A DNA stretch of 31,031 nucleotides, from contig JANJUA010000072.1 in the NCBI GenBank assembly GCA_024710825.1, positions 1 through 31,031 of the forward strand, given 5' to 3'. Origin of the DNA: Solirubrobacteraceae bacterium (GTDB lineage: Bacteria > Actinomycetota > Thermoleophilia > Solirubrobacterales > Solirubrobacteraceae). A program made the translations under genes and the position numbers. Below, one piece after another: positions 17,046 through 24,476 of this stretch; positions within the stretch are counted from its first letter, which is position 1, and every line of letters starts with the position of its first letter. The notes beneath the pieces were generated by a model. The model saw nothing but the letters and a program-made list of their open reading frames with translations, made no database searches and was not told the DNA's origin.

Positions 17046-18391
17046 CGTCGATGCGCTGGCTGCTGCTCAAGGACCTCCAGATCCTGCGGCGCTCGAAGCT
17101 GCTGGTCGGGCTGCTGGTCGTCTACCCGATCGCGATCGCGCTGCTGATCGGGCTGGCGCTGTCGCGCGGGCCCGACAAGCCCGCCGTGGCGTTCCTCAAC
17201 CAGGTGCCGCTCGGGCAGGCGGTGACGAACGTCGGCGGCGAGGAGATCGACTTCTCGCGGTATGCCGACGAGATCTTCGAGGCGGTCGACCCGGTGCGGG
17301 TGAAGACCCGCGCCGAGGCGATCGAGAAGGTCGAGTCGGGCGCCGCGCTCGCCGCGCTGATCATCCCGCCGGACGTGGTCGACCGCCTCAACGGCGGGCT
17401 CGGGCAGGCCGAGATCGAGGTGCTCTACAACGGCGACGCGCTGAAGCAGAGCTACGTGCAGGCGACGATCGACTCGCAGCTCGCCCGGGCCAACGCGGCG
17501 CTGTCGGCGAAGATCCGCGACGTGGCGGTCGAGGATCTCGCGGTTCTCACGGACGGCGGCGAGATCCACACCCCGATCGGCAGCCACGACCTGCTGGGCC
17601 TGCGCACGGCGAAGGAGATCCTCGCGGCGACGCTCGCGGAGCTGCCCGCCGACGCGCCGGTGCGCGCCGGGATCGAGCGCGTCGACGACTTCGCGGGCCA
17701 GGCCCTCATCGGGCTGGGGTTCGCGACCCCGGCGCTGCGGGCGGTCAGCGCGCCGATCCAGGTGGAGACCACGGTGCTCTCGGGGAGCCGCACGCCGCTC
17801 GACGCGTACGCGGTGGCGCTCGCGGTCGCCGTGTCGCTGCTGCTCGTCTCGGTGCTGCTGGCCGCCGGCGTGCTGGCGTTGGAGCGCGAGGAGCAGGCGT
17901 ACGGGCGGCTCGTGCGCGGGCTGGTGGCGAAGACGACCCTGCTGGCCGAGAAGATCGCGCTCGCGGCGGGATGCAGCGCGCTCGTCGGCCTGGCGATGCT
18001 GTGCGGGATCGGCGCGTTCACCGGGGTGGACTGGAGCCGCTTCGGCCTGTGGATCGCCGCGCTCGCGGCGGGCGCCCTCGGCTGCAGCGCGCTGGGCGTG
18101 GCGATCGGCGCGCTGGCCCGCGAGGTCCGCGCGGCGTCGCTGCTCGGGCTGCTCCTCGCGCTGCCGCTCGCCTTCCTCGCGCTCGTGCCGAGCGGCGCGG
18201 TGGCGGGCGGGCTCTACGACGTCGTGCGGGTGGTCAACGCGGCGTTCCCGTTCAAGCCGACGCTCCAGGCGCTCGACGCCGCGGTCAACGGCGCCGAACC
18301 CGGCCTGTGGGGCTCCGTGGCGCACCTCCTGGCGCTGACGGCCGCCTTCGCCGCGCTCGCCCGGCTCGCCCTGAGACGATTCACGGCATGA
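17042..18391 (+). CDS. ABC-2 family permease
   Basis: This is the membrane subunit paired with the preceding ATPase (449 aa). One helix lies near the N-terminus (about 20-38). A large extracytoplasmic region of about 220 residues follows, then five or six C-terminal helices, as in ABC2_membrane_3 (YhgE/Pip, LinearmycinR-like) exporters. The TTG at 17042 forms a TTGA overlap with the ATPase stop and has a GGGAG/GGGGG stretch upstream; ATG 17051 is the alternative. Likely exports or protects against a hydrophobic or peptide-like compound, but nothing fixes the substrate. The stop overlaps the GNAT gene start by 4 bases. Confidence 0.88.
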   Translation: MTSMRWLLLKDLQILRRSKLLVGLLVVYPIAIALLIGLALSRGPDKPAVAFLNQVPLGQAVTNVGGEEIDFSRYADEIFEAVDPVRVKTRAEAIEKVESGAALAALIIPPDVVDRLNGGLGQAEIEVLYNGDALKQSYVQATIDSQLARANAALSAKIRDVAVEDLAVLTDGGEIHTPIGSHDLLGLRTAKEILAATLAELPADAPVRAGIERVDDFAGQALIGLGFATPALRAVSAPIQVETTVLSGSRTPLDAYAVALAVAVSLLLVSVLLAAGVLALEREEQAYGRLVRGLVAKTTLLAEKIALAAGCSALVGLAMLCGIGAFTGVDWSRFGLWIAALAAGALGCSALGVAIGALAREVRAASLLGLLLALPLAFLALVPSGAVAGGLYDVVRVVNAAFPFKPTLQALDAAVNGAEPGLWGSVAHLLALTAAFAALARLALRRFTA

Positions 18392-18942
18392 GGCTCCCGG
18401 AGAGGGTCGAGGGCGACCAGGTCGCCATCCGCGCCTTCACGCTCGCCGACGTGGAGGAGCTCGTGGAGCTGCGCCGCCGCACCCGCCACTTCAACGCCCC
18501 GTTCGAGCCGCGCCGCTCCGAGGGCTTCTTCACGGCCGCCGGCCAGCGCGCCGAGATCCTGCGAGACCGCGACGAGTGGGTCGTCGACCGGATGTACGCC
18601 TTCGCGATCGTGGAGCGCGACGGGCGGATCCGGGGGCGCATAGGGCTGGCGAACATCGTGCGCGGAGCCTGGGACAACGCGACGCTCGGCTACTTCGTCG
18701 ACGAGGCGGTCAACGGGCGCGGCTACGCCACGGAGGCGGTCGCCCTGATCCTGCGCTTCGCGTTCGGTCCGTGTCGGCTGCATCGCGTGCAGGCCGCGGT
18801 CATGCCGCACAACGAGCGCTCCGCGCGGGTCCTGCGCAAGAACGGCCTGCGGCTCGAGGGCCACGCCCAGCGCTACCTGCGCCTCGACGGCCGCTGGCGC
18901 GACCACGACCTCTACGCGATCACCGCCGAGGAGCTCGGCTGA
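18388..18942 (+). CDS. GNAT N-acetyltransferase, RimJ/RimL-like
   Basis: This is an acetyl-CoA-dependent N-acetyltransferase (184 aa) of the RimJ/RimL/Acetyltransf_3 type. N-terminal VAIRAFTLADVEEL, IGLANIVRGAWDNATLGYFVDEA in the core, the acetyl-CoA loop NGRGYATEAV, and the C-terminal HNERSARVLRKNGLRLEGH are all standard. Members acetylate ribosomal-protein N-termini, amino acids or antibiotics. It is coupled by an ATGA overlap to the ABC-2 permease, so a link to the exported compound (modification plus efflux) is plausible but unproven. It is the last gene of normal base composition before the two-gene island. Confidence 0.92.
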   Translation: MRLPERVEGDQVAIRAFTLADVEELVELRRRTRHFNAPFEPRRSEGFFTAAGQRAEILRDRDEWVVDRMYAFAIVERDGRIRGRIGLANIVRGAWDNATLGYFVDEAVNGRGYATEAVALILRFAFGPCRLHRVQAAVMPHNERSARVLRKNGLRLEGHAQRYLRLDGRWRDHDLYAITAEELG

Positions 18943-19001
18943 GCGACGGGCCTCTGGTCTAGGTATCCCGAGGACTGACGCCAACAGGTCGAGCGCGGCC
19001 A

Positions 19002-19007
19002 TAGGCT
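19002..19007 (+). promoter_or_regulatory. -10 element of the two-gene island
   Basis: TAGGCT lies 6 nt before the GTG at 19014, again the spacing expected for a leaderless transcript. CTGACG at 18975-18980 resembles a -35 but is 21 nt away, longer than usual. The promoter would sit in the 71-base gap after the GNAT gene, so the cassette is probably transcribed by itself. Confidence 0.4.
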
Positions 19008-19013
19008 CTCGCC

Positions 19014-19955
19014 GTGGATCCCCGCCTGTTGCCACTCAACGCGGTTCTCGCGCTGGTGCATGCCGACGGCACGTGGTTTCACGACCTCGCTGAGCAGGGC
19101 TTTCGCCTGCACGCCATCGAGCTCAAGGTGCATAGCTCCGCGGGCATTGCGGTGACGGACGCCGTCGTTTACCGGCGGGAGCCCGACCTGGTGCTCCTCT
19201 GCGAGGGAAAATCGGGACGCAACGTCGAGGCGGCGCAAGCGCGGAAGTACGCCGCAGCCGATGCGGCGGCGCTGAGACGGAGCGGCGCGCTGCCCGTCGA
19301 GGTCGCGCAAGACGCGACGGTCTCGCCACTCTTCGTCGTACGGGACGAGGTTCGCGCCGATATCGAGGCGGGCCTGCGGGACTGCGGCGTTGCGGCGCTG
19401 GTGCTGTCCATCGGGCGTGGCGTCGCCCGGCTTGACGGTCCATGTCCTGCAGGCTTGGAAGCGTTCGATCGACGAGACGCGTCGAAGCGGTGGCCTCCAG
19501 GACGAGTGCGGGCCGATCATCAGAGCCCGATCGAGGAGCTTGCGGAGCTACTCGCGCAGCAGATCGGTGCGGCACAGGCGCGGCGCCTGTCCGTTCTGGA
19601 CCTCGAGGAGGCCGCGGCGCGGATCTACCGGCTGTGGCCGCAGTTGAGCCTGTCCGGTCGCCGCGACTTCGTGCGCCGGCTCAAGGACTGCGCGCGGCAT
19701 CTCGCCAACAACGCGCTCAAAGGGGCGATCCGCCTGGGGCCCGGGAGCAGCGACGTACCGGCCCGGATCCTAATCGAGCGCACTCCGGCCGATCGCGACG
19801 CGCGCGGCATGCCACAGGCGTGGCAGGCGCAGTCCCGGCATCTGGCTGCCGATCTCGGCAGGGGCGGCGAGCCCACCGTGGAAGAGGATCCGCAGCTTTC
19901 GCTCGACGACCTGGACCTCGGCGAGGCGGACGGGCCAGACCGTCGACCGGAGTAA
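19014..19955 (+). CDS. Probable PD-(D/E)XK nuclease-like protein, first gene of a two-gene cassette
   Basis: I do not recognise a named family. The first 90 residues of this 313-aa protein carry a plausible restriction-endonuclease-like core. It comprises E36 in HAIELK, D49 at the start of a strand (TDAVVYRREPD), then a strand ending CEGKSG with E64-x-K66. A helix with Q75 and Y79 in QARKY follows. D49...E64-x-K66 fits PD-(D/E)XK spacing and the Q-x-x-x-Y helix is common in such nucleases. The remaining two-thirds is helical and charged, ending in an acidic tail (SLDDLDLGEADG). It has a GTG start with no Shine-Dalgarno sequence and a TAA stop, rare in this window. G+C is lower than in neighbours. 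The second gene follows after 18 bases. A defence or DNA-processing role is inference. Confidence 0.6.
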   Translation: MDPRLLPLNAVLALVHADGTWFHDLAEQGFRLHAIELKVHSSAGIAVTDAVVYRREPDLVLLCEGKSGRNVEAAQARKYAAADAAALRRSGALPVEVAQDATVSPLFVVRDEVRADIEAGLRDCGVAALVLSIGRGVARLDGPCPAGLEAFDRRDASKRWPPGRVRADHQSPIEELAELLAQQIGAAQARRLSVLDLEEAAARIYRLWPQLSLSGRRDFVRRLKDCARHLANNALKGAIRLGPGSSDVPARILIERTPADRDARGMPQAWQAQSRHLAADLGRGGEPTVEEDPQLSLDDLDLGEADGPDRRPE

Positions 19956-19973
19956 CGTCACGTGTGAGACGCC

Positions 19974-21035
19974 ATGCTCGATCGCCAGGACTTCCTCAAC
20001 ACCATGACGAACGCCGTTGCCGCGCAGCCGGGGAGCCCGCTCGTCGACGGATACGTTGCGCCTGGGACGGTGAAGACGCGGCTGCTCGAGGCTCATCCGC
20101 CCGAGATGTCTCCGGACGGCGCCAAGTTCCTCCTGAACGAGATGTCGGACCACCTTGGGCTGGGGTGCAGTCGCCTCGGGGACGAGCTATGGGCGCTCGC
20201 GGTGGACGAGCATGCGATGTTCGTCGACACGCTCAATCCGCGGTTCTGGCAGCTGCATGCGACTGTGCCCGCCGACGATGTGGACCGTTTGGTTCGCAAG
20301 GCCGTGGGGACCGATGCCCGGCTCGACACAGGCTGGCTTCCCAAGTCGCTGCTCGGGCGACTCGACGGCCACCATCACCACCTGCGTCTCGCTTTCGACG
20401 CCGACGATCTCTTGGGCAGCACCGGTCCGGTCCGGCGGACACGGGTGCGCTTCGAAGGCGACGCTCCTGAGGGCTTGCTGGAGCTCCTATCTAGCGACGC
20501 TACCTACGCGAGCTCCACCAGCGTGACGGCGGTCGGCTCGCGCGTCGGCGATCCTGACGTCGGCATGGCCCAGGTGGTGGCTGACTACCGCGGTGCCTTC
20601 GTCACTGGAGCCGGCGACTTCGAGGTCGCCGCGAACGCGATATGGCGGCTCGTTGATGAGTACGAACGGTTCGTTCGTGGGCTCGAGTCCCGGTACCGCT
20701 CGGTCTTCGAGCCGGTCGCAGACGCAGGGCTCCGTGTGGACGGTGACGTTGCGCTCATCGACTTCGAGCGAGAGGTCGACGTCGATCGCCTCGTCGTGGG
20801 TCTGTTCACGGCGAAGGAGCCTTTCCGTCTATGGGCGGTTCCTCGCCAGGTCGGCGATGACGAATGGACGGCAGACGCGGTCGATCTCCATGTCGGCCAG
20901 CCGCTTCGTCTCGAGCTGTCGCCCCGACAGATGCGGGTGATCCTCGAACCGGAAACCTGCGGCAATACGCTCGCGCGGCTGCTGACGAACTTCCAGCAGC
21001 ATCTCGACGCTCGCACTCACTTGGCAGCTGCCTAG
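19974..21035 (+). CDS. Hypothetical protein, second gene of the two-gene cassette
   Basis: This is an unrecognised 353-aa soluble protein with no signal peptide or membrane helix. Visible features are a HHHH run near residue 135 and repeated acidic D-D pairs. A central helical stretch (ANAIWRLVDEYERFVRGLES) is followed by a beta-rich part containing DLHVGQPLRLELSPRQM, and a C-terminal helical LARLLTNFQQHLDART. No Walker, nuclease or zinc motif is convincing. The ATG at 19974 is 18 bases after the nuclease-like gene, in the same direction. The two share low G+C (37/60 at 20461-20520 and 36/60 at 20641-20700, against 48/60 at 23461-23520) and more A/T-ending codons, so they probably arrived together. 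It may be a partner, sensor or specificity subunit of the nuclease-like protein; this is a guess from adjacency. Confidence 0.65.
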   Translation: MLDRQDFLNTMTNAVAAQPGSPLVDGYVAPGTVKTRLLEAHPPEMSPDGAKFLLNEMSDHLGLGCSRLGDELWALAVDEHAMFVDTLNPRFWQLHATVPADDVDRLVRKAVGTDARLDTGWLPKSLLGRLDGHHHHLRLAFDADDLLGSTGPVRRTRVRFEGDAPEGLLELLSSDATYASSTSVTAVGSRVGDPDVGMAQVVADYRGAFVTGAGDFEVAANAIWRLVDEYERFVRGLESRYRSVFEPVADAGLRVDGDVALIDFEREVDVDRLVVGLFTAKEPFRLWAVPRQVGDDEWTADAVDLHVGQPLRLELSPRQMRVILEPETCGNTLARLLTNFQQHLDARTHLAAA

Positions 21036-21159
21036 CTCAAGGCGGACAACTTGACGCCCTTACCCGGACGGCCTCCTGGCTCGGCGAGCAACGTCCTGTA
21101 CTGCCACGACCGGCTTGGGTCGGACGGCGTCGGGCGGATGCACTACTAGGCTGGGATCA
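21036..21159 (+). promoter_or_regulatory. hemB: Intergenic region with hemB promoter candidate
   Basis: This 124-base gap is the longest in the window. TAGGCT at 21147-21152 lies 7 nt before the hemB ATG, again suggesting a leaderless start. TTGACG at 21051-21056 is a good -35 hexamer but has no -10 at the proper distance. No hairpin terminator for the upstream cassette is evident. Confidence 0.4.
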
Positions 21160-22124
21160 ATGGCCTTTCCGCAGACCCGCCTGCGCCGCCTGCGTCGCAC
21201 CGCGGTGCTCCGCGACCTCGTTCGGGAGACCGAGGTCCGCCCTCGTCAGCTCGTGCTGCCGCTGTTCGTCGAGGCGGGGCTGGAGGGCTCCCGCCCGATA
21301 GGCGCGCTGCCCGGGGTCTCGCGCCACGGCATCGACTCCGCCGTGGAGCAGGCGGGAGAGGCCGCCGCGCTCGGTCTCGGCGGCGTCCTGCTCTTCGGCA
21401 TTCCCGCCGCCAAGGACGAGACCGGCTCGGAGGCGTGGGACGACGAGGGCGCGGTGCAGCTCGCCACCCGGGCGATCAAGGCCGCCCACCCCACGTTCAC
21501 CGTCGCCACCGACGTGTGCCTGTGCGAGTACACCAGCCACGGCCACTGCGGGCTGGTGCGCGAGGACGGGTCGATCGACAACGACGCCTCGGTCGAGCTG
21601 CTGGCCCGGGTCGCCCTGTCGCACGCCGGCGCCGGCGCCGACCTGGTGGCCCCGAGCGACATGATGGACGGCCGCGTCGGGGCCATCCGCGCCGAGCTCG
21701 ACGGCGAGGGCTTCGCCGACACGGCGATCATGGCCTACAGCGCCAAGCACGCCTCGGCCCTCTACGCCCCGTTCCGCGACGCCGCCGACTCGACCCCCGC
21801 GTTCGGCACCGGCGCGGCTACCAGATGGACCCGGCCAACGGCGACGAGGCGGTCCGCGAGGCGCTCCTGGACGTCGAGGAGGGCGCCGACATGGTCATGG
21901 TCAAGCCGGCGCTCTCGGCGCTGGACCTCATCTGGCGCGTCAAGCAACAGACGCGCATGCCGGTCGCCGCCTACCAGGTCAGCGGCGAGTACGCCATGAT
22001 CAAGACATCGTCCATGGACGACCGAGCGCTGGCTCTGGAGACGCTGACGGCGATCCGCCGCGCCGGCGCCGACGTCGTCATCACCTACTTCGCGAAGGAC
22101 GTCGCCCGATGGCTGGCAACCTGA
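21160..22124 (+). pseudogene. hemB: hemB, porphobilinogen synthase (delta-aminolevulinate dehydratase), frame broken by one missing base
   Basis: HemB condenses two 5-aminolevulinate molecules to porphobilinogen, an early tetrapyrrole step. The N-terminal two-thirds reads from ATG 21160 and has the zinc-type triad C120, C122, C130 in [13 protein letters not shown] and K196 in AYSAKHAS. At about 21807 the frame is lost: the expected [11 protein letters not shown] reads TTCGGC then ACCGGC. Adding one G restores it. The rest then continues in the +1-shifted frame with [15 protein letters not shown], the Schiff-base lysine in [18 protein letters not shown] and a stop at 22124. Repaired, it is 321 aa, exactly family length, with all catalytic residues intact. 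A sequencing or assembly error in an otherwise functional gene is more likely than decay. It overlaps the next gene by 16 bases. Confidence 0.9.
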
Positions 22125-23185
22125 AGATCCGCTCTCGCAAGGACGGGGCCGCCGTCCCGCTCTCCGAGGGCGACAAGCGCCTGCTCAACGCGATGCAGGG
22201 CCGCTTCCCGCTGGACACGCGCCCCTATGCGCGCGTCGCCGCCGAGGTGGGCCTGGCGGAGGACGAGGCGATCGCCCGGGTCGCGGAGCTGATCGACGAG
22301 CGCATCATCCGCCAGGTCACGCCGATCTTCGACACGCGCGCGTTCGGCTACGGCTCGATGCTCGTCGCGGCCAAGGTGGACCCGGAGCACCCATGGGGCC
22401 CCGCGAAGATCGTCAACTCGCACCCGGGCGTGTCGCACAACTACCTGCGCAACCACGAGTTCAACATGTGGTTCACGATCGCCGTCGAGGAGGACTCGCG
22501 GCTCGGGCTGCAGGGCACGCTCGACCTGCTGCAGAGGCTCACGGGGGCCGAGTCGATCCGCCAGCTTCCGACGCTGACGCTGTTCAAGATCCGCATGGAC
22601 CTGGAGATGTCCGGGGACACGAAGGCGCTGGCGTCGCAGGGCGAGGCGGTCGCGCCGTCGCCCGGCCTGCGGGTTGCCTTCGACGAGCGCGACCGCCAGG
22701 TCGTCCGCGCGACGCAGGGCGACCTGCCCGTCGTTCGCGAGCCCTACGCGGCGGCCGCCGCCGAGCTCGGCATGAGCCAGCAGGAGCTGCTCGACCACCT
22801 CGCCGGCATGCAGGAGCGGGGCCTCCTCCGGCGCGTCGCCGCGATCCTCTTCCATCGCCGCGCCGGCTTCAGCGCCAACGGCATGGGCGTCTGGAAGGTG
22901 CCCGAGGAGCGCGTCGCGGAGATCGGTCCGCAGATGGCGGCGTTCCGCGGCATCTCGCACTGCTATCAGCGTCCGACGTACCCCGACTGGCCGTACGCGC
23001 TGTTCACGATGGCGCACGGGCGCTCGAAGCAGGAGTGCGACGCCATCCTCGACGCCATCGGCGACCAGGTCGACGGGATCGAGGACCGCGCGGTCCTCTA
23101 CTCGTCGACGGAGTTCAAGAAGATCCGGCTGCTCTACTTCACCGACGCGTTCAAGCGGTGGGAGCAGGAGCACGCCGGAGTCTGA
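22109..23185 (+). CDS. ahbAB: Fused AhbA/AhbB-like siroheme decarboxylase (Lrp/AsnC-like fold)
   Basis: This 358-aa protein has two homologous halves, each a winged helix plus an AsnC-like alpha/beta domain (about 18-180 and 190-350). Each half carries the decarboxylase-type signature: [18 protein letters not shown] around H110 and [19 protein letters not shown] around H284. These are typical of AhbA/AhbB and NirD/L/G/H, which remove two acetate carboxyl groups from siroheme to give 12,18-didecarboxysiroheme. In the alternative heme pathway or heme d1 synthesis the subunits are usually separate; here they are fused. The position between hemB and hemL supports a tetrapyrrole role over transcription regulation, although automated tools may call it Lrp/AsnC. 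Whether the organism also has AhbC/AhbD cannot be seen here. Confidence 0.82.
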
Positions 23186-23186
23186 C

Positions 23187-24476
23187 GTGGGCCCTCCGTC
23201 CCTCCGCGACACCCGCTCCGCCGAGCTGTACGCCCGGGCGCTCGACGTGCTGCCCGGCGGCGTGAGCTCGCCGGTCCGCGCGATGCGCGCGATCGGCCGC
23301 GACCCGCTGTTCGTAGTCCGCGGCGAGGGCGCCGAGCTCGTGGACGCCGACGGCAACCGCTACGTCGACTGGGTGCAGTCCTGGGGCCCTCTGATCCACG
23401 GCCACGCGCATCCCGCGATCGTGTCGGCCGTCACCGATGCGGCGGGTCGCGGGACGACGTTCGGGGCGCCCACGGTGGGGGAGGTCGAGCTCGCCGAGGA
23501 GGTCGCCCGGCGGATGCCCGCGGTCGAGATGCTGCGGATGACGTCGTCGGGCACCGAGGCCTCGATGAGCGCGATCCGGCTCGCCCGCGCGGCGACCGGG
23601 CGCGACAAGCTGCTGAAGTTCGCCGGCGCCTACCACGGCCACGTCGACGGCCTGCTGGCCGAGGCCGGCAGCGGGCTCGCCACCGCCGCCCTGCCCTCCA
23701 GCCCCGGGGTCCCGGCCGCGGTGACCGCAGACACGGTCATCGTGCCGTTCAACGACGCCGAGGCGGTCCGCGCGGCCTGTGCGGAGCACCGCTTCGCCGC
23801 CGTGCTCGCCGAGCCGCTGCCCGCCAACATGGGGCTCGTGCCGCCCGTCGACGGCTTCCTCGACTTCCTGCGCGCGCAGGCGACCGAGAACGGGGCGCTG
23901 CTCGTCTTCGACGAGGTGATCAGCGGCTTCCGGGTCGCCCGCGGCGGGGCCCAGGAGGCGACCGGCGTCCTCCCCGACCTGGTGGTGATGGGGAAGGTCC
24001 TCGGCGGCGGCCTGCCCGCGGCGGCGTACGGCGGCTCGCGGGCGCTCATGGAGCGCATGGCCCCCGCCGGCGACGTCTACCAGGCCGGCACGCTGTCGGG
24101 CAACCCGCTGGCGGTCGCGGCCGGCCTGGCGGCGCTCGAGCTGCTCGACGACGCCGCCTACCGGCGCCTGGGGCAGACCACCGAGGCGCTCGCCGCCGGG
24201 CTGCGCGAGGCGGCCGCCGACCGGCCCGTGCAGGTGCAGGCGACCTGCGGCCTGGTGACCACGTTCTTCTCCGAGACGCCCGTGTGCGACTACGAGGACG
24301 CCAAGGCCTGCGACACGGCCGCCTACGGCCGCTGGTGCCGGGCGCTGCTCGCTCGCGGCGTCTACCCGCCGCCGTCCCAGTTCGAGGCCTGGTTCCCCTC
24401 GCTGGCCCACACGGACGAGCACGTTCAGCGCACCGTGGCCGTCGCGGCCGCGGCCTTCGCGGAGGCCTGGGAATGA
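23187..24476 (+). CDS. hemL: Glutamate-1-semialdehyde 2,1-aminomutase
   Basis: This is a PLP enzyme converting glutamate-1-semialdehyde to 5-aminolevulinate in the C5 pathway, feeding HemB (429 aa, normal length). The family opening ALDVLPGGVSSPVRAM, WGPLIHGHAHP, the cofactor motif SSGTEASMSAIRLAR, FDEVISGFRVA and Schiff-base lysine K270 in MGKVLGGGLPAAAYGG are all present. The GTG start lies 1 base after the siroheme-decarboxylase stop. The stop overlaps the next small gene (ATGA, 24473-24476). It is part of one heme-biosynthesis operon. Confidence 0.96.
   Translation: MGPPSLRDTRSAELYARALDVLPGGVSSPVRAMRAIGRDPLFVVRGEGAELVDADGNRYVDWVQSWGPLIHGHAHPAIVSAVTDAAGRGTTFGAPTVGEVELAEEVARRMPAVEMLRMTSSGTEASMSAIRLARAATGRDKLLKFAGAYHGHVDGLLAEAGSGLATAALPSSPGVPAAVTADTVIVPFNDAEAVRAACAEHRFAAVLAEPLPANMGLVPPVDGFLDFLRAQATENGALLVFDEVISGFRVARGGAQEATGVLPDLVVMGKVLGGGLPAAAYGGSRALMERMAPAGDVYQAGTLSGNPLAVAAGLAALELLDDAAYRRLGQTTEALAAGLREAAADRPVQVQATCGLVTTFFSETPVCDYEDAKACDTAAYGRWCRALLARGVYPPPSQFEAWFPSLAHTDEHVQRTVAVAAAAFAEAWE

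Follow-up and report, generated by a model that had tools for sequence, protein, structure and literature searches.

A conserved gene pair encoding a predicted PD-(D/E)XK nuclease and a predicted DNA-binding partner, a candidate restriction-type immune module

Background

The contig JANJUA010000072.1 of a Solirubrobacteraceae bacterium (assembly GCA_024710825.1), all 31,031 nucleotides of which are referred to here as the window, carries two neighbouring genes set among housekeeping genes. Gene 1 (19014..19955, + strand; 313 amino acids, GTG start) is followed after 18 bp by gene 2 (19974..21035, + strand; 353 amino acids, ATG start), so that the two same-direction genes described in an earlier note on this DNA were found as open reading frames (ORFs) with the same spacing. 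The note had proposed that gene 1 is a PD-(D/E)XK-like protein and that, with its unrecognised partner, it could form a compact anti-phage or DNA-processing system. The question is whether the pair is such a system, or whether it serves DNA repair, addiction or the upkeep of mobile elements. The analysis favoured, with a probability of roughly 55%, a conserved, likely mobile, compact immune module of the restriction type.

Results

Intact gene 2 was present in 13 fetched loci, and an intact nuclease gene was directly adjacent in 12 of them, which bore out the conserved pairing that the earlier note had looked for. The nuclease gene came first in six of the 12 pairs (the window, G251, G131, G372, Lentzea and G765) and the partner gene in the remaining six (G644, G966, Halobacterium, Lysinibacillus, Metabacillus and Methanocaldococcus jannaschii), with intergenic gaps of +18 to -32 bp. 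Because adjacency was kept when the order was swapped, the arrangement is strong evidence that the two genes would share a function. The pairing is old. In the thirteenth locus, G1021, intact gene 2 stood beside an internally deleted nuclease remnant. Loci in which gene 2 is broken agree with this: G975 had a gene 2 split over two frames beside a nuclease gene whose frame was altered as far as the end of the contig, and G903 carried the remnant of a partner-nuclease fusion. By eye, 15 of the 44 gene 1 matches were on contigs identical in size to those of gene 2 matches, among the 120 of 165 that were listed.

A homology search of 61 relatives found each gene in a single genome, the window's own. 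Larger, overlapping genome samples were drawn evenly from the window's class (399 genomes), its phylum (396) and the class to which G644 belongs (296). In the first, a profile search detected gene 1 in five genomes and gene 2 in five; both genes were present and adjacent in four (G000, G251, G131 and G372), G302 had a frame-broken gene 1 with no gene 2 detected, and G232 had a gene 2 fragment only. Gene 2 was found in two of the 396 and in six of the 296 genomes of the other samples, and a scan of a contig collection covering 84,980 species, confined to close patterns, gave three loci. A tblastn search of 72,556 plasmid records with gene 2 reached Halobacterium hubeiense (90% query cover), Lysinibacillus irui (90%), Metabacillus (79%) and the plasmid of M. 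jannaschii DSM 2661 (42%, or 99% when a Thermococcus homologue was the query). In all four plasmid loci the gene following gene 2 bears a PD-(D/E)XK-type motif; a fifth record, from Natronosalvus, held only a C-terminal piece of gene 2. The 12 intact pairs thus come from actinobacteria and from four plasmids, two of Bacillaceae, one haloarchaeal and that of M. jannaschii, and relatives of gene 2 are also found in Thermococcus kodakarensis KOD1, Thermococcus guaymasensis and Methanotorris igneus. No relative of either gene occurred in 50,697 phage records, and IMG/VR scans made with near-family queries and one Thermococcus protein gave no confirmed relative. The distribution is patchy, the pair has decayed in several genomes, and it likely moves between genomes.

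In Gaiella (L004, 9747-13224), tRNA-Sec is followed by the pair and then by a tyrosine integrase gene, beside a gene that is selB-like by eye; together they make up a small integrative element. The match P0046 joins a tyrosine integrase N-terminus to a C-terminal portion of gene 1, and its 11-kb contig, judged by its length, encodes gene 2 (P0061) as well; the fusion may reflect a deletion or an assembly join within a mobile element.

The prediction that homologues would lie near known defence genes held for six of the 13 loci, which comprised two with DISARM genes and one each with a type I restriction-modification locus, Schlafen/SMC-like genes, an OLD/AriA-like ATPase and a PADLOC candidate helicase. 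In G644 the pair begins an operon of partner, nuclease, DrmD (E = 0), DrmMI (E = 0), DrmA (2e-282) and DrmB (1.6e-76); the first three of these genes overlap one another by 4 bp. The four ORFs between DrmB and a nuoA-like gene, to which the scan was confined, matched no PADLOC model, and no DrmC was found among them. In G1021 the order was partner, deleted nuclease and then DrmD. Strong DrmD matches (E < 1e-250) occurred in six of the 296 genomes of G644's class (29 had any match at 1e-60); the pair lay in front of strong DrmD in two of the six, and a third, G966, had the pair and DrmD on different contigs. One DISARM paper describes DrmC as dispensable and often missing, calls the breakdown of DNA in its absence a mystery, and proposes the recruitment of another PLD nuclease (PMC9142583).

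In the other loci the type I restriction-modification genes of G966 were divergent from the pair, as was the candidate helicase, PDC-S28, of the Lysinibacillus locus. A Schlafen-domain gene (GmrSD_N, below the Pfam cut-off), a metallophosphatase gene and an SMC/AAA-type gene (best PADLOC row LmuB, 1e-17) lay upstream of the G765 pair on the same strand, and the M. jannaschii plasmid locus encoded an OLD/AriA-like ATPase, an EVE-domain protein and VapC.

Several further features of these loci were recorded. The C-terminal part of G644 DrmMI may lie in another frame, and directly after drmB (L027, 6278-7089) there are, by eye, ribbon-helix-helix-like and MazF/PemK-like ORFs without a PADLOC match. 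In G765 (L037, 10111-19900) the pair and its three upstream neighbours named above form one same-strand row beside an ISL3 transposase gene, possibly a larger composite defence system. Two site-specific integrases lie downstream in the Lysinibacillus locus (L020, 4049-13235), and upstream of the M. jannaschii pair (L022, 1756-5353) the EVE-domain gene and the OLD/AriA-like ATPase gene are followed by an uncharacterised gene.

Gene 1 is very probably a PD-(D/E)XK nuclease. The residues pointed out in the earlier note, D49 (19158..19160, + strand), a predicted metal-binding Asp, E64-G65-K66 (19203..19211, +), a predicted E-x-K catalytic motif, and Q75-x-x-x-Y79 (19236..19250, +), which we take to be a RecB/Cas4-like Q motif, were at the positions given there and were conserved in two alignments. 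Alignment A1 had 43 rows, gene 1 and 42 of its 44 homology-search matches (P0003, a 99%-identical duplicate, and the integrase-fused P0046 were excluded), and D49, E64, K66, Q75 and Y79 were each at least 90% conserved. Alignment A9 comprised gene 1 and 10 homologues at 15-46% identity; K66 and Q75 were present in all 11 rows, D49 and E64 in 10 each and Y79 in eight. The exceptions at the two acidic positions were themselves acidic, Glu replacing D49 in Metabacillus and Asp replacing E64 in Halobacterium. The predicted structure has an α-β-β-β-α-β core, with the putative nuclease core at residues 1-150, followed by a predicted winged-helix domain at residues 170-285 (19521..19868, +). The best rows of the fold search were mostly restriction-like nucleases, with EndoMS/NucS on top. 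Nothing that the earlier note had named as refuting its reading was thus encountered.

The sequence of gene 1 matched no PDB entry at E up to 1, and Pfam and PADLOC gave no family for either gene at E up to 5. Similarly, none of the 12 homologues scanned matched a PADLOC model at E 0.001, the lone row being a chance-level Cas8f (0.029). A weak DEK row (E 0.45) in the comparison of the gene 1 profile with solved structures was taken as chance, and the single row of an NCBIfam scan of the pair, blaBES at E 0.064, was dismissed as noise. Both genes are already catalogued as families: the precomputed accession PF27326 is attached to many gene 1 homologues and PF25924 to the listed homologues of gene 2.

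Gene 2 is a putative DNA-binding sensor, a role somewhat more likely than not. Its predicted structure resembled a TBP/KA1-like fold (RdgC/Iml3-like), and the structural rows included Iml3, CENP-L, CENP-N and RdgC. The signature CGNT-x-ARL-x-TN-x-Q, C329 to Q341 (20958..20996, + strand), was evident in alignments of its homologues, with C329, N331, R335 and N339 invariant across 26 divergent rows. Iml3/Chl4 and RdgC have been placed in one group with the phage-exclusion protein RexA (PMC11077077). Sequence homology of gene 2 to RexA (PF15969) was not detected (hhalign probability 0.1; no Pfam match for gene 2), and RexA was not among the VIA structural rows, an absence that is uninformative. 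A viral fold library gave three rows at E 0.001 or less, all uncharacterised giant-virus proteins with TM of 0.17-0.18, and TBP rows ranked lower. A weak Rad50 row (E 0.06) in the comparison of the gene 2 profile with solved structures was taken as chance, internal repeats suggested by the secondary structure were not found when three segments of alignment A5 were compared by hhalign, and a sliding-clamp-like identity was rejected, the three-domain look being all that lay behind that idea.

The end of gene 1 is a low-confidence, disordered stretch in the model and bears QLSLDDL (residues 294-300; 19893..19913, + strand), which resembles a sliding-clamp-binding motif. Homologues ended in comparable tails, namely QLSLF in Lysinibacillus, QLDLL in Lentzea, QLSLDEF in G765, PPSLFDEF in G644, QPTLF in G966, QLTIDEF in Metabacillus and a terminal QTTLD in M. 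jannaschii; the Halobacterium homologue had no such motif. The pattern [QP][LPTM][STD][LI][FDL], which was composed after the tails had been inspected and counts four closely related tails of the window's class, matched nine of 12 tails against a shuffle mean of 0.09, and none of 2000 shuffles reached nine. It was absent from the Gaiella, G372 and Halobacterium tails. The pre-existing clamp-binding consensus QL[SD]L[FL] matched two of the 12 tails (shuffle mean 0.0035) and [STRD]LF three (shuffle mean 0.30). For actinobacterial NucS, a motif [E/K]-[L/Y]-[T/R]-L-F is described in the C-terminal region of the enzyme, whose activity needs the clamp (PMC8228993). Docking of the gene 1 tail on a sliding clamp is a tentative proposal of ours, reasoned from these sequences, which is somewhat less probable than its opposite and is weakest for the tail of the window's own protein.

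In the window, the cassette-bearing segment (18943..21159) extends from the stop codon of a GNAT acetyltransferase gene (18388..18942, + strand; PF13302) to the start of hemB (ALAD; 21160..21999, +; PF00490 over residues 6-234). In two of the three congeners compared, the gap between the two genes is 62 bp (G001) and 64 bp (G003). Of eight genomes examined, five (G001, G002, G003, G006 and G010) had a GNAT homologue in the vicinity of hemB, and the homology search of relatives found the pair in none of the five; in G251, which has the pair, it is on a different contig from hemB. The cassette therefore looks like an insertion at the GNAT-hemB site, as the earlier note had supposed in placing it within housekeeping DNA. 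An assembly artefact is made less likely by a second assembly, which contains a 99%-identical gene 1 (P0003) on a 28-kb contig. The 20 largest direct repeat families and the 25 longest inverted pairs showed neither a target-site duplication nor a terminal repeat around the cassette. The cassette has a GC content of 66.5-69% in 1-kb windows, compared with mostly 70-75% around it; GC is equally low in two other parts of the window. In the third congener, G002, the GNAT and hemB homologues are separated by about 976 bp of different DNA that contains short tandem repeat units (L040), and the site may be prone to insertion.

The promoter-like box attributed to the pair fared less well. The hexamer TAGGCT (19002..19007, + strand) does lie 6 nt before the GTG of gene 1 and, read from the sequence, may be a leaderless -10-like element, but a sigma-70 scan of 18850-21250 found no promoter and the same hexamer occurs at 21147-21152, 7 nt upstream of the hemB ATG. 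It would fit a leaderless start and is not evidence of function.

The other window neighbours scanned were an ABC transporter gene and, besides GNAT and hemB, further haem-type genes. The 3' part of hemB seems to shift frame, the remainder being visible by eye in an overlapping ORF (21435-22124, within 21160-22124); either an error in the sequence or a genuine break could account for this. After hemB, the haem cluster continues with a double AsnC gene resembling siroheme decarboxylase and with an Aminotran_3 gene that is hemL-like by eye (22109-24476).

Discussion

These results are best read as pointing to a stand-alone immune module of the restriction type, which could also plug into DISARM. 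A role against invading DNA, which is somewhat more probable than this particular form of it, gains support because defence genes adjoin the pair in six loci and because the distribution is patchy and decaying. Gene 2, with a fold like those of RdgC/RexA/Iml3-Chl4 and TBP, might wrap around or bend foreign DNA or an abnormal replication structure and then license the gene 1 nuclease. The winged helix of gene 1 would bind DNA, and its tail could attach to the sliding clamp of replication (DnaN or PCNA), with the result that cleavage would fall on invader DNA while it replicates. In G644, and perhaps in its relatives, the pair may be the nuclease arm of a DISARM system in which DrmC was not found. 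The most far-reaching form of the proposal is a clamp-guided immune nuclease common to Archaea and Bacteria, in which an RdgC/RexA-like ring sensor licenses a clamp-tethered PD-(D/E)XK nuclease that is also the missing nuclease of DrmC-less DISARM; taken as a whole, we consider this unlikely.

If the proposal is true, the pair would be an immune module neither component of which had been recognised; it occurs from M. jannaschii to the actinobacteria, and the partner gene also in T. kodakarensis. It would provide a concrete candidate for the destruction of DNA by DISARM without DrmC, the step called a mystery in PMC9142583. Immunity would also be coupled to the replication clamp, and replicating invaders would be targeted without a recognition sequence.

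Several observations limit the case for an immune role. Seven of the 13 loci, the window included, lacked a clear defence neighbour, and the figure of six in 13 stands without a baseline for arbitrary genes. Among the structural matches between gene 1 and solved nucleases none was statistically decisive, and the top rows were EndoMS/NucS. The last point would suit a DNA-repair pair, in which a NucS/EndoMS-type nuclease coupled to the clamp and a DNA-binding accessory constitute an optional genome-maintenance cassette. The resemblance of gene 2 to RdgC, a recombination protein, and the SMC/AAA-type and metallophosphatase genes upstream of the G765 pair, SbcCD-like in our reading, point the same way, as does the binding of NucS to the sliding clamp through its C-terminus, described in PMC8228993. 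However, unlike a repair gene, the pair is absent from all three congeners and each gene occurs in only five of the 399 class genomes; it is borne on plasmids, several genomes hold it in decayed form, in G644 it stands at the start of a DISARM operon, and the domain order of gene 1 is unlike that of NucS. Repair is an improbable explanation, although the strongest of the three rivals.

A toxin-antitoxin or addiction module, with gene 1 as a DNase toxin and gene 2 as its antidote, is less probable still. Such a module would account for two abutting or overlapping genes that are also plasmid-borne, for the G1021 locus, where gene 2 is intact while the nuclease is internally deleted, and for VapC and MazF/PemK genes close by in two plasmid loci. 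It is difficult to reconcile with the order being swapped in half of the 12 pairs and with the large size of gene 2, and the plasmid tblastn search detected gene 2, not gene 1, out to archaea, whereas antitoxins usually diverge faster. G302, with its frame-broken gene 1 and no gene 2 detected, decides neither way. The pair might instead maintain or process mobile elements, in replication, partition or excision, rather than protect the host, as four plasmid records, the tyrosine integrase after the Gaiella pair beside tRNA-Sec and the P0046 integrase fusion would suggest. Against this, neither an integrase nor a replication gene was observed next to the pair in the window, the neighbours vary between loci, and the phage records and the IMG/VR scans made were without a match or a confirmed relative, respectively; we rate it the most remote of the three. 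A mobile immune module of the restriction type fits better than any of the three.

Relation to known systems

By the features tested, the pair belongs to none of DISARM, NucS, RexA and TOTE/TALON. It is apparently undescribed in the literature covered, which excludes subscription papers and most preprints, and a term search of PMC12839542 and PMC10853773 found no mention of it. The G644 pair starts an operon of class 1 DISARM (drmD-drmMI-drmA-drmB-drmC), but Drm genes adjoin intact gene 2 in only two of the 13 loci, G644 and G1021, and the nuclease of the pair is predicted to be PD-(D/E)XK rather than PLD and is accompanied by a partner. The DISARM label was rejected for the window pair, there being no Drm gene (DrmA, DrmB) among the neighbours scanned. 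EndoMS/NucS resembles gene 1 in having a RecB-like PD-(D/E)XK core and, more tentatively, in a tail of the clamp-binding type at the C-terminus; there, however, an N-terminal DNA-binding dimer domain precedes a C-terminal nuclease, whereas the gene 1 model has the reverse order, with the winged helix after the nuclease, a paired partner gene and a patchy occurrence.

The likeness to the RexA/RdgC/Iml3-Chl4 group resides in the Iml3, CENP-L, CENP-N and RdgC rows of gene 2. In contrast to RexA, with which it has no sequence similarity, gene 2 has a predicted nuclease as its partner and not RexB, a membrane protein. TOTE and TALON combine a TBP domain with an effector, which in TALON is a PD-(D/E)xK nuclease (PMC12458937). 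These systems differ in also having TPR-CSD proteins and, in TALON, the YprA helicase; membership was discarded, since neither a TPR-CSD nor a YprA helicase gene was among the window neighbours read or scanned. In its working, the pair would resemble a nuclease-effector defence system, one built of two unrecognised components.
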